Source of the DNA: Thermoclostridium caenicola | Lineage (GTDB): Bacteria; Bacillota; Clostridia; DSM-8532 | DNA: 43,572 bases | Assembly (NCBI RefSeq): GCF_900142095.1 | Contig: NZ_FQZP01000017.1 | Location: 1 to 43,572 of the forward strand | Direction: 5' to 3' | Shown: positions 14,036 to 19,690 of the stretch, one piece after another | Layout: each line of letters starts with the position of its first letter | How positions within the stretch are numbered: position 1 is the first letter of the stretch | The notes under the pieces: model-generated | Databases searched by the model: none | Seen by the model: the letters and a program-made list of their open reading frames with translations, nothing else | What the model was told of the DNA's origin: nothing | Translations under genes and position numbers: made by a program

Positions 14036-16117
14036 TTATACCCTGAACACCGACACAGCCTCCATGAGCTTGTCTGCGCTTTCCTTCACCGTCTTGACCT
14101 GCTCCAGCACTTCGCTTGCCCTGGAGGCCACCAGGTTTGCTTCATTGGCCATATCCATGGTATCGGAAGCACCGTCCACGGCCGCCTGCGAAACATCGTT
14201 GATGGCCTTGAGGATGCTCTGGACCGAAGCGTAAAGCTGTTCGGAAGTGGCGCTGAATTCGGTAACCATATCGTCAATCATGCGGGCATCCCTGTTGTAC
14301 TGCTCGCCCGTCTGTACCAGCATGTCATAGTCTTTCGCAACCTTATTGTCCAGGAATTGCAACACTTGCTCGGAGCATTCGGACAGGTGCTGCACCGACT
14401 CCAGGACCTGCTGGGTCACGTTTTGGATCTCTGTGGCGGTTTCCTTGGAATTCTCGGCCAGTTTCCGGATCTCTTCAGCCACAACCGCAAAGCCCCTGCC
14501 CGATTCGCCTGCCTGCGCGGCTTCTATGGAAGCGTTCAGGGCCAGCAGGTTGGTTTGGGTGGCTATCTCCAGGATGGCGTCCGAGAGCAGGTGGATGCGC
14601 TCAACGGCCCTGGATTTCTCGATGGCCTCCCTGAGCTTGGCCGAATTGTTCCTGCGGATGTCCTGGGCGCTTCTCTGGGATTCCTCTGCGTTGTGCTTCA
14701 ACTCCTGTGCCCTGTGGCTCACTTCGCTGGCTGATTCCGCCCCTTCCTGGGCTTTATGGGCAATTGATTCTATGGCGGCCTCGATTTCGGTAGTGGTGGC
14801 GTTCATCTCTTCAGCCATGGCCGATGTTTCCTGCATTTTTGAAGACAGGGCCTGTGTGATGGAGGCGATGACATGGATTTCCTCGGTCAGTTTGGCCATG
14901 TTTTCGCCGGTTACCGAATTGGCGTGATCCACGCTCCTGGCTTCCTGGACAACTTTCCGGATGATTTCGGCCACATTGTCGTTAATCTTTTTGAATCCCC
15001 TGGCCAGGGCGCCTATCTCATCGCGCCGGCTGGCATATTTATCATTTGTCATGGGCGTAAAGTTACCTTCGGACATGGTCAGGCACTGATTTGTTAAATC
15101 TGTAACAGGCTTGGATATATTTTTTCCCATGAAGAAGGCTACCAATATGCCGGCGATCAGGAAGAAACCGGATATACCCAGGGTTGCGCTTTTCAGCTTA
15201 CCCAGTGAGGCCATGAATTCATCCTGGTCTACCGATATGGCAATAGACCAGCCATAGCCTGGAATGGGCGCAAAACCGGTCAGTTTGGTGATGCCGTTGT
15301 ACTTGTATGTATCAAAGCCTGTTTGCCCTTCGGTCATTTTTTTCTGCACATCGGCAAAATTCTCGAATCCCAGATCATTGCCGTCCAGTTCCCTGATGGT
15401 TGCGGAGGTCATGCTGTCCACATCATCTGATGAAAGAACCTGGGTGGCTCCGGTTGTGGCGTCTGCCGAACGGTTTGTGATGATGCCCAGCAAAAGTTGT
15501 GTATCCGCATGGGCGATGGTTCGCCCCTGCCTGTTGATGATGAAGGCTTCGCCCGTCTGTCCAAATTCGATCCGCCGGGCGAACTCGCTGAGTTCCAGTC
15601 CGTCACGGATGGCCATCAGCACGCCTGAAACAGCATTATTGGCCATCACCGGAACAGCGTAGGTCATCACGATATCGGTTCCGCCGCTTTCGCGGTGCGG
15701 ATCGGAGACGACGCTCCTTCCCGAGAGCGCTGCCTGGAACAGGGGATCGTCTTTCATGTCCAGGATATCGCCGGTGTTAGTGACAGCCTTTCCGTTCCTG
15801 TCGATCAGGATCATCCGGAGATGTCCTGCCCTCTTGGATTCCTCATCCAATGCTGATATAATGTTGCTGTAATCGTCATCGGATAATGCTTTGCTGATTG
15901 TATCCAATGAGGCTACCAGACTCAGTACATTGAGATGGCTATGGATGCTGTCTTCAATGGTTAATGCTGCTTCGGTTGCGAATTTGGGCATGGTTTCGTC
16001 AAGAACGCTGTTCAGCGCCCTGGCCGACGTTATATAGGATGCCGACCCAAGGCCCATGCCGATAAACAGGATCAGGATGCTGAACGATACGATGATACGT
16101 GAGCTGATACTTCTCAC
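14036..16117 (-). CDS. Methyl-accepting chemotaxis protein with double Cache domain
   Basis: The protein is 693 residues from a GTG at 16117. This start is chosen because GAAGGGGGG lies upstream and the first membrane span begins a few residues in; an upstream ATG at 16201 would fall at the predicted transcript start. Order: span 1 (about 8-28), extracellular dCache_1-like domain (about 30-300, ending in [12 protein letters not shown]), span 2 (about 310-332), HAMP linker, then the long signalling coiled coil. The tip reads [43 protein letters not shown], the CheA/CheW contact. It senses a small molecule outside and controls the flagellar motor. No C-terminal CheR-binding pentapeptide is seen. 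It stands alone, convergent with the sugar locus; whether it responds to the same sugar is unknown. Confidence 0.94.
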
Positions 16118-16200
16118 AGAGCCGTTCCCCCCTTCGCAGGTACATGAATGGTGTAAGTCTGTTGCAATACCATTTTTAAATACGAGTACAATCAAATACA

Positions 16201-16230
16201 ATTATAATTGATATAATAAGTTCGACGCAA
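16201..16230 (-). promoter_or_regulatory. Possible promoter of the dCache chemoreceptor gene
   Basis: On the minus strand TTGCGT (16230-16225) and TATAAT (16206-16201) have 18-bp spacing. The -10 is perfect and the -35 keeps only TTG. It would start the message near 16194, supporting the GTG at 16117 as start codon. Confidence 0.4.
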
Positions 16231-16378: not shown

Positions 16379-19300
16379 ATGAAGCTTGCTGTACAGAAGG
16401 CAAAGTCATTCATGGCGCTGCGAACGATCATGAGCCTCATCGGGCTTTTGTCCTTTATCGCCCTTATGGCGACAAGCATCGCCATGACCGCTGAAGTAGA
16501 TAATGCTGCGCTTTGCAGAATTGTGATCATCGTTTGCGCCATATTGTATGTCGCAAGCTTCTGCTTTGAATTTGCCATGTCACGAAAAACGGCCAGGGAG
16601 CTGGAGGATCTGGCGAGAATCCTTTCGGACATCGGGGGCGAGATCGGGGTATCCCTTGAACGGGACGAAGGGACACAGGCTGTCACGGTTTTGTCGGACA
16701 TGCTCAACCGGTCGCTGAAGTTCCTGGATGAGAAAAACCTCCGGCTGGAATCGGAGCTCAAACGGAACGAGCGGCTTTCGGAAAGCATCTCTGATTTTTA
16801 CAGCCAGATGAGAACCCTTAAGGAGACCGGGGTAAGGATTGACTTTTTCGAATATGATTATGTCCATCGGATCTTTGTCTTCGCCACCGGGTTGTTTACC
16901 TTCCTTGAGGATAATGAGGACATTTTCGAAATCACCGCCGATGATCTGTTCGAGCGGTTCAGTTTCAGCATCTCCAAAGAGACATTCGAACAGCTGGTCA
17001 ACAGGTGCGTCAGCCATCAGGAGCCGCTGGATCTTGAATTCAGCGTGGCGCGGGAGGATGGGAAAATCCGCTGGCTGAAGCTCTGGGGGCGGTTGAGCGC
17101 CGATGGCGCCCGCATTACAGGAGCCATTATGGACATCACCCGCGAGGTGGTTCAGCGCAACCTGGAAAAGGAACGGGCCATCCGCGACAATATGACCGGG
17201 TTCTACAACCGGAACGCCCTCACCGAGGTGGCGGGCAAAGCCATGGCCGAGTGTGCGGATGGGGAAATGGTGGCCTTCGTCTATATCGGACTGACGGGCT
17301 ACCAGGAGTTCCAGGAAAGATACGGCATGATCGCCGGCAACTCCTATATCCGGGTCTGTGCCGAGGTGCTCAGGAAATTCCTGACCCCTTGCCTGATTCC
17401 GTTCAGATGGCTGGGGGCCGATTTCCTGCTGCTGGCTACCCATGTCAGAAGCCTGGAATCCTTCCGGGAAGAGATGGAGGGGATCATCCAGAAGGTTCAG
17501 AAGTACATGGGCGATGTGGACGGCATTGCGGTGAGCTTCCAGCTTGCCGTGGGATATGCCCTCTCGGGCATCGACGGGGATGTGCCGGCGGACCTTTTGG
17601 AGTACGCGTCCTTTGCCGAGAATGAGGTCTTAAGGGGGGAAAGGGAAAGCCCCAACCCGTTCAACCGGGAGCGCTACGAGGAAGCCAAGCGGGCAGCCCT
17701 GCGCCGCACGTTCATCAAGGATATCATCGACAGAAACCAATTGAGCATTGTCTTCCAGCCCATTGTTTCCCTTAAGACCGGTGAATTGTACGGTTTTGAG
17801 GCCCTCTCCAGGCCGACAAATCCCATATACCGGAACATCGAGGAGCTCATCGAGGATGCCGAGGCGACGGGCCATTATGCCATCCTTGAAAAACGGATGG
17901 TGTACAATGCGCTGGATGCCTATATGCTGCGCGATGAACACTTCCGTGACCATTATCTTTTCATCAACACCGCGCCTTTTGCCACCCTGGAGGAGCAGGA
18001 CTACAACGACATCCGCGATCGCTATTTCGGCCATATGAAGGTTGTTTTCGAGGTCATGGAAAGAAAGCGGATGGATCCGGACGCGATCAACCTGAGAAAG
18101 TCCATCGTGATCAAAGCGGGCGCAAAATTCGCCCTGGACGATTTCGGCTCAGGCTATTCCAATCACCTGGCCCTGCTGGCCCTTGAGCCCGATATCATCA
18201 AGATCGACAAGGAACTCGTGCGCGGAGTCAATTCAGATCTACGCAAGCAGCATATGATAGAGGACATCATCAGCTATGCCCGCTACAGGGGAACGCGGGT
18301 CCTGGCCGAGGGCATTGAAACCAGGGAAGAACTGGAGACCCTGTGCAGGATGGGAATTGACTATGCCCAGGGCTATTTCCTGGGCATGCCCTCCAGTGAG
18401 CTGACAGAGCCCTACGAACAGGCCCGGGAGATCATCCGGGCTATGGGGAAGCACCAGTTGGTGGGTCTGGGGAACCTGCTCATTCTGCTCAGGGAATCCA
18501 TGGCCGGCGTTGACTCTGAAATGGCGTGCCATGCGGCCGTAACTGCCTATCTGGTCCTGAAGATGGGCCTGAAACTCAGGATCAGGGGAGAAAGGCTGGC
18601 AGGCCTCATTACGGCGGCCATGCTGCGCGATATGGGAACCCTTTCCGGCGAATCCGATGGGTGGAGGAACCCGGGCAGGCGGGGAATACCCGGTCACAGC
18701 CTGTATGCCTGCCTGGTCATGAAGGAATATTATCCGTACGACCGGTGCCCCGAGGCGGTCCTGTACCACCACCTGCCCTGGTCTGAAAGGGGTGCCGCCC
18801 TTGAAGCCATGGATTATCCCGACGAGGCGGATATTTTGTCGCTTGCGGACGAAGCGGCATGTCTCATCCTTGACGATCCCGGAACCTGCATGGAAGAGGA
18901 AATGGTACAACGGCTGGAAAGTTCGGGACATGACAGCCGCAACGTATCCGTGTTTGCGGAGCTCTGCAGGGCGGGTATTCTGAAAAAAGCGGCTTCCGGC
19001 GATTTCATGCAGAACCTTCTGAACGTATCGGGCAGGCTCCATGTGGGCAGGTCCGAGATCGAAGGCATCATCAGGACCTATGTCTATACCCTGCTTTTCC
19101 GAATGCCCCATCTCTATGCCCATGCGCGGGTGATGGAGACCCTGGCCCGTTTCCTGGCAAGGCTGACCAAGCAGAACTGGAAGCTGGTGGATATGCTGGG
19201 CCTTGCGTCGCTGATCTATAATCTGGGCAGGCTGCCCCGGCCAGGTGAAGGCCCGGTAACGGCGGATAACGCCTATGAGGAGCACCTCTTGATCCGCAGC

Positions 19301-19690
19301 AGGCTGAAAACCGTTGCGCATATCCTGAAGGAAGCCGGGCTGGGCGATATCATGAACATGATGCATGCGGCCTGCGGGACCGAAGGCGAGGTATCCGGAA
19401 ACCACATGCTCATGGTCAGGGATATCGCGAGCGGGGCCAGGATTCTCAATATAGCCGACATTTTCGCCAGCCTCCTGGAAGAACGGCCGGGGAGGCCGGC
19501 CATGAACTGCACGGAGGCGGTTTACGAACTGGCCGGACTGGTCAGGGCGGAAGAGGGATACCTTCCCATCGTGGAAACCATGCAGGAATACGTGGATGAC
19601 ATCGAAAGCCGGATCCAGACAGCCAAGGCTGAGATTGAAAAGCGTTACCGCAGCATCATGGATACCTGGGCAAGGCTCCAGGCCGAATAG
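16379..19690 (+). CDS. Membrane GGDEF-EAL protein with two C-terminal HD-GYP-like domains
   Basis: The protein is 1103 residues. Two membrane spans (about 15-37 and 45-67) are followed by a coiled coil, a PAS-like region (about 150-260) and a GGDEF domain (about 270-430). That domain opens normally (RDNMTGFYNRNALTEV) but has GADF at 346-349 in place of GGDEF, so no cyclase activity is expected. The EAL domain (about 445-690) keeps the catalytic set: GFEALSR (Glu474), FIN, VFEVME, DDFGSGYS (Asp587-Asp588), IIKIDK, AEGIET and AQGYFLG, so it should cleave c-di-GMP. Residues about 700-860 and 905-1085 each resemble degenerate HD-GYP domains. The first has YHHLPW (796-801) and SLADEA but RD for HD; the second has ARILNIADIFASLL and RPGRPAM with no HD. 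Start: ATG after AAGGTGAG. Confidence 0.88.
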   Translation: MKLAVQKAKSFMALRTIMSLIGLLSFIALMATSIAMTAEVDNAALCRIVIIVCAILYVASFCFEFAMSRKTARELEDLARILSDIGGEIGVSLERDEGTQAVTVLSDMLNRSLKFLDEKNLRLESELKRNERLSESISDFYSQMRTLKETGVRIDFFEYDYVHRIFVFATGLFTFLEDNEDIFEITADDLFERFSFSISKETFEQLVNRCVSHQEPLDLEFSVAREDGKIRWLKLWGRLSADGARITGAIMDITREVVQRNLEKERAIRDNMTGFYNRNALTEVAGKAMAECADGEMVAFVYIGLTGYQEFQERYGMIAGNSYIRVCAEVLRKFLTPCLIPFRWLGADFLLLATHVRSLESFREEMEGIIQKVQKYMGDVDGIAVSFQLAVGYALSGIDGDVPADLLEYASFAENEVLRGERESPNPFNRERYEEAKRAALRRTFIKDIIDRNQLSIVFQPIVSLKTGELYGFEALSRPTNPIYRNIEELIEDAEATGHYAILEKRMVYNALDAYMLRDEHFRDHYLFINTAPFATLEEQDYNDIRDRYFGHMKVVFEVMERKRMDPDAINLRKSIVIKAGAKFALDDFGSGYSNHLALLALEPDIIKIDKELVRGVNSDLRKQHMIEDIISYARYRGTRVLAEGIETREELETLCRMGIDYAQGYFLGMPSSELTEPYEQAREIIRAMGKHQLVGLGNLLILLRESMAGVDSEMACHAAVTAYLVLKMGLKLRIRGERLAGLITAAMLRDMGTLSGESDGWRNPGRRGIPGHSLYACLVMKEYYPYDRCPEAVLYHHLPWSERGAALEAMDYPDEADILSLADEAACLILDDPGTCMEEEMVQRLESSGHDSRNVSVFAELCRAGILKKAASGDFMQNLLNVSGRLHVGRSEIEGIIRTYVYTLLFRMPHLYAHARVMETLARFLARLTKQNWKLVDMLGLASLIYNLGRLPRPGEGPVTADNAYEEHLLIRSRLKTVAHILKEAGLGDIMNMMHAACGTEGEVSGNHMLMVRDIASGARILNIADIFASLLEERPGRPAMNCTEAVYELAGLVRAEEGYLPIVETMQEYVDDIESRIQTAKAEIEKRYRSIMDTWARLQAE

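Follow-up and report, generated by a model that had tools for sequence, protein, structure and literature searches.

A putative EAL phosphodiesterase of Thermoclostridium caenicola joined to a tandem HD/HD-GYP tail that is predicted to be catalytically inactive

EAL and HD-GYP domains are unrelated solutions to one reaction and are normally found on separate proteins. In the EAL-HDOD proteins YuxH and CdgJ, the EAL domain is followed by a catalytically dead domain with an HD fold. According to reviews, inactive domains often act as receptors or partners (PMC10333796). The metal-free HD-GYP domain of DvhD binds c-di-GMP and moves its helical stalk (PMC13090378).

The window considered here, that is the whole stretch of DNA that was analysed, covers 43,572 nucleotides of the 2.9 Mb Thermoclostridium caenicola genome (125 contigs). 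An open reading frame at 16379–19690 of the forward strand, with exact frame and coordinates, encodes a protein of 1103 amino acids. The first-pass annotation had claimed that this single protein carries both fold classes of c-di-GMP phosphodiesterase, and sequence profiles bear this out. Taken together, it is probably a membrane-anchored, PAS-controlled EAL phosphodiesterase with an acquired tandem HD/HD-GYP tail that now serves as a non-hydrolysing dimerisation or allosteric module.

Domain organization and identity of the tail

The domain plan may be read as a transmembrane region, a helical linker, and PAS-like, GGDEF, EAL, HD and HD domains, all encoded on the forward strand. It is shared by 13 other genomes, with some copies ending at contig ends, and the orthologues begin at the same residue as the window reading frame (MKLxVQK). 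Since these 13 genomes carry the same fusion, the possibility that two genes were merged by a sequencing or assembly error was rejected. Two hydrophobic helices at residues ~14–66 (16418–16576) are predicted from the sequence to form the membrane anchor, and the full-length model presents helices at residues 2–37 and 43–91 (local pLDDT = 60–78). The helical linker (residues ~99–149, 16673–16825) was modeled as a helix from 99 to 149 with low confidence. A PAS-like sensor domain (residues ~150–255, 16826–17143) was identified from its order of strands and helices, with a local pLDDT of up to 86 and a weak PAS_3 match (E 0.03). The GGDEF domain (Pfam PF00990, E 3e-14) spans residues 267–413 (17177–17617) and the EAL domain (Pfam PF00563, E 9e-43, above cutoff) spans residues 450–671 (17726–18391). 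A dCache-HAMP-MCP chemoreceptor gene (14036–16201, reverse strand) adjoins the fusion gene divergently and is conserved as a neighbour in genomes of the same genus.

In the tail, Pfam HD covers residues 718–825 (18530–18853) and HD_5, the HD-GYP model, covers residues 908–1051 (19100–19531). The HD_5 match is above cutoff (E 1e-9 to 1e-10). The HD match is below cutoff in the window (E 0.004–0.035), and the same segment passes the cutoff in orthologues (E 2.2e-9, 2.5e-8 and 1.3e-6). When a profile of the 14 tails was compared by hhalign with four free-standing tandem HD proteins of the host family (425–453 aa), the alignment extended over 393 columns with a probability of 99.5 and an E value of 2.5e-23. 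Given the HD and HD_5 matches of the orthologues and this profile alignment, the presence of two real HD domains is, at the level of sequence, well beyond chance. The tail, which comprises the last ~415 residues, is collinear end to end with the ~430-aa tandem HD/HD-GYP proteins that occur commonly in Clostridia as free-standing chains, both domains being in order, and half-models match N-halves to N-halves and C-halves to C-halves in free-standing proteins from other members of the class. Among solved structures, the tail profiles best matched the tandem protein V-cGAP3 (PDB: 5z7c, E 7e-7) and DvhD with its dead HD-GYP domain (E 4e-6). Searched by itself, the first HD segment had no match in the PDB. 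The tail closes with a long helix (residues ~1059–1102, 19553–19684) that is conserved in the sequence of every fused copy and helical in both models.

The structure prediction of the tail that the first-pass annotation had proposed gave a mean pLDDT of 50, and that of the whole protein 41.5, with six sequences each, a confidence too low for the models to serve as evidence of the HD folds. Fold searches with the tail model (pLDDT = 50) gave HD-GYP and HD entries (PA4781, PmGH, PgpH and DvhD) mixed with unrelated helical proteins, at scores not above background.

An EAL domain followed by a non-catalytic HD fold is also the known EAL-HDOD plan of YuxH and CdgJ, and a single orthologue has a sub-threshold HDOD match (E 0.023). 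However, the tails match HD_5 in 14/14 cases, HD in 10/14 and HDOD in 1/14, and the collinearity with tandem HD-GYP proteins extends across two domains. The profile search with HD-GYP and HDOD models that the first-pass annotation had proposed matched the HD-GYP type, with no HDOD match for the window at E 10. An HDOD identity of the tail was rejected on the profile counts and is extremely unlikely.

The combination of EAL and HD-GYP folds had been called unusual, and neither the sampled genomes nor the literature searched yielded another example. When 291 genomes from the class and 398 from the phylum were searched with the tail profile, no fusion was present outside the family among the matches listed; apart from the window, the phylum matches listed are reading frames of 219–470 aa. 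Among 45 non-family HD-GYP reading frames of 700 aa or more that were retrieved, being part of those listed, none contains EAL and 18 contain GGDEF. No description of EAL plus HD-GYP in one protein was found in the literature searched, the coverage of which excludes most subscription journals. A GGDEF protein of 857 aa (L110:2828-5398) is joined to an intact tandem HD/HD-GYP unit, making a second fusion type of that unit. Elsewhere a GGDEF-EAL gene adjoins a GGDEF-HD-GYP gene on the same strand (L114:1-4236 and L113:161-5000), which places both phosphodiesterase classes side by side.

Distribution, history and selection

The fusion is present in 14 of the 32 genomes of the host family and is confined to two genera. 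In both, it is found upstream of the carD, PIN/TRAM and ispD genes on every contig that extends so far. The orthologue from another genus that serves as the outgroup (G013) lies about 3.2 kb from carD in a matching gene neighbourhood and ends shortly past EAL. A genome nested inside the second genus (G016, support 76–93) has at the locus an orthologue that also ends shortly past EAL. Since both of these tail-less orthologues retain EAL, the tail is an add-on outside the catalytic core, and the two provide a ready comparison at the same locus. The most parsimonious history would be a single gain that preceded the split of the two genera, followed by a single loss; the outgroup is a single genome, so a loss in G013 is possible.

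A free-standing tandem HD protein occurs in none of the fusion-bearing genomes and in 5 of the 18 other genomes of the family, which is only suggestive (one-sided Fisher about 0.04, calculated by hand and uncorrected for kinship). In genome G020, a further copy of the fusion gene (L091:4773-7085) is truncated at the contig end. Between L025:944-4264 and L026:3667-6987, dS is 0–0.02 in the tail but 0.2–0.3 in the GGDEF and EAL domains of the same genes, and the near-identical tails would reflect either recent recombination of the tail or a chimeric assembly.

The dN/dS of the tail is about 0.04–0.24, compared to 0.03–0.15 for GGDEF and EAL, as quoted from the pairs with usable dS; in several pairs dS is near saturation. 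With ratios in this range, the tail is maintained, though faster-changing, and is under continued purifying selection. Residues that are specific to the fused copies and invariant in all of them include KQNW 931–934, R917 and E920, together with H915. That the tail is functionless evolutionary debris in a gene heading for loss would agree with the tail-less orthologue of G016 inside the second genus and with the low tail identity between genera (30–37%, against 55–64% for the GGDEF-EAL part). It is nonetheless quite unlikely given a dN/dS well under 1 in each of the two tail domains, no internal stop codons in the tail among the other carriers, and strongly conserved new motifs such as HxRxME and KQNW.

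Catalytic state of the domains

The first-pass annotation had described the EAL domain as catalytically complete and the GGDEF domain as degenerate, and both descriptions hold. All nine EAL residues are found in the window (E474, N530, E558, E561, D587, D588, K608, E644 and Q664). The site is complete in 16 of the 17 copies compared, one tail-less copy among them, and has Q replaced by H in the most distant, outgroup copy. From these residues, the EAL domain should be an active phosphodiesterase. The GGDEF signature reads LGADF in the window and WGSDF in the second genus, departing in both from the GG(D/E)EF of an active diguanylate cyclase, and residue alignment identified no RxxD inhibitory site in the window domain.

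The tail had been described as two HD-GYP-like segments without the HD metal pair. The pair is indeed broken in both segments, but the two domains differ in that the first is short of one residue only. In the window, the first HD domain retains H718, D751, H773, H797–H798 and D824, and has lost only the histidine of the HD dyad, now R750. In the second domain only H915 and D1027 remain, with Y947–N948 in the position of HD and neither HH nor GYP. Relatives of the same genus keep the HD dyad of the first domain but have N in place of H718. At least one metal residue is missing from the N-terminal domain in each of the 14 fused copies. In the C-terminal domain, HD, the third His, HH and GYP are gone in 14/14 while the equivalents of H915 and D1027 persist. 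In contrast, in 11/11 of the free-standing relatives that were checked, each domain has H, HD, H, HH and D and the second also has GYP; the HD-GYP enzyme signature of the C-terminal domain (HD, third His, HH, GYP) is thus present in 0/14 fused and 11/11 free-standing proteins. One GGDEF-tandem protein is likewise complete in both domains, including the GYP of the second. Because of the missing metal residues, both HD domains of the tail are predicted to be catalytically inactive. For the first HD domain of the window, where a single histidine of the metal set is missing, we infer from sequence that activity has been lost.

It is hardly probable that the first HD domain still hydrolyses some substrate in some members of the family. 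Its metal residues are mostly retained in one genus and in L029, and several fused copies have HD, H, HH and D and are missing only the first His, as the window is missing only the H of HD. Against this, a complete metal set is present in no fused copy and the second genus shows further decay of the domain (HE, HG; HN, QN).

Among the matches listed from outside the family, the nearest free-standing relative (G098, E 4e-42) retains an intact HD-GYP site, so the catalytic loss may be dated after the fusion; this fits a tail that was joined first and lost its catalytic residues later. Five free-standing tandem HD proteins of Clostridia (L037:9466-10734, L038:161-1450, L039:10156-11424, L041:9350-10624 and L109:8000-9253) have every metal residue in the N-terminal HD domain as well, and such proteins may possess two active sites each. 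Their N-terminal domains mostly have HHxxW instead of HHE...GYP, and the aligned N-terminal domain of V-cGAP3 reads KD. Another free-standing tandem HD gene (L040:9329-10746, genome G029) is broken into two overlapping frames by a frameshift or an assembly error.

Proposed role of the tail and comparison with known systems

In the reading that we consider probable, a membrane-anchored and PAS-controlled EAL phosphodiesterase would have gained a complete tandem HD/HD-GYP protein at its C-terminus. EAL would be the only catalytic site, converting c-di-GMP to pGpG, and would be controlled by the PAS domain, the GGDEF domain and the tail. The degenerate GGDEF domain would serve as an allosteric or structural domain. 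The tail, without hydrolysis, would serve as a dimerisation or allosteric module that sets the activity or the location of EAL. An HD-GYP sequence that is selected after its chemistry was erased would amount to a natural experiment on the non-catalytic roles of HD-GYP domains.

As a tentative alternative, the tail may serve in the manner of DvhD as a receptor that binds cyclic dinucleotides without metal, with bound substrate, product (pGpG) or another dinucleotide tuning EAL in a self-metering fashion. DvhD offers a precedent since it binds c-di-GMP without metal, with HD changed to SQ and HH to MN (PMC13090378), and it ranks first among the solved structures matched by the genus-level tail profile. 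Of the former pocket, 14/14 fused copies retain H915 and D1027 and, in alignments read by eye, R1036 lies at DvhD R650 and R951 at DvhD K582 in the window genus. However, the GYP loop (DvhD Y621) is gone along with the metal residues, the equivalent of DvhD Y652 is G or N, and the second genus has M or L in place of R951. With these losses, the pocket is not conserved across the family as a c-di-GMP site, and the loss of the GYP loop and of the DvhD aromatic contact disfavours simple c-di-GMP binding by the C-terminal domain. The wider proposal, in which a dead tandem HD-GYP module from the rival phosphodiesterase class would gate the EAL active site of the same chain by binding a dinucleotide, cyclic or linear, so that substrate or product would be measured, is slightly more doubtful. 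Since R1036 is kept but the counterparts of the GYP tyrosine and of Y652 are missing, a structural or allosteric dimerisation module is preferred over a nucleotide sensor.

Among known systems, the DosP-type GGDEF-EAL phosphodiesterases are the best solved matches to the GGDEF-EAL core and share its complete EAL site, but are without an HD tail, unlike the window protein. The EAL-HDOD proteins YuxH and CdgJ have one domain of the HDOD family, whereas the window protein is of the tandem HD/HD-GYP type. DvhD (PMC13090378, PDB: 9rbz) is likewise a membrane protein and combines a PAS domain with an HD-GYP domain without metal residues; it differs in having a single HD-GYP domain that keeps the Y of GYP, and no EAL, while the fused tail has no GYP loop. 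The free-standing tandem HD/HD-GYP proteins of Clostridia (~430 aa) and V-cGAP3 (PDB: 5z7c) are like the tail in their two HD domains, in the order and spacing of these, and in aligning over the full length. They have an intact C-terminal HD-GYP site and no EAL joined to it, whereas the fused tail has lost metal residues in both domains.
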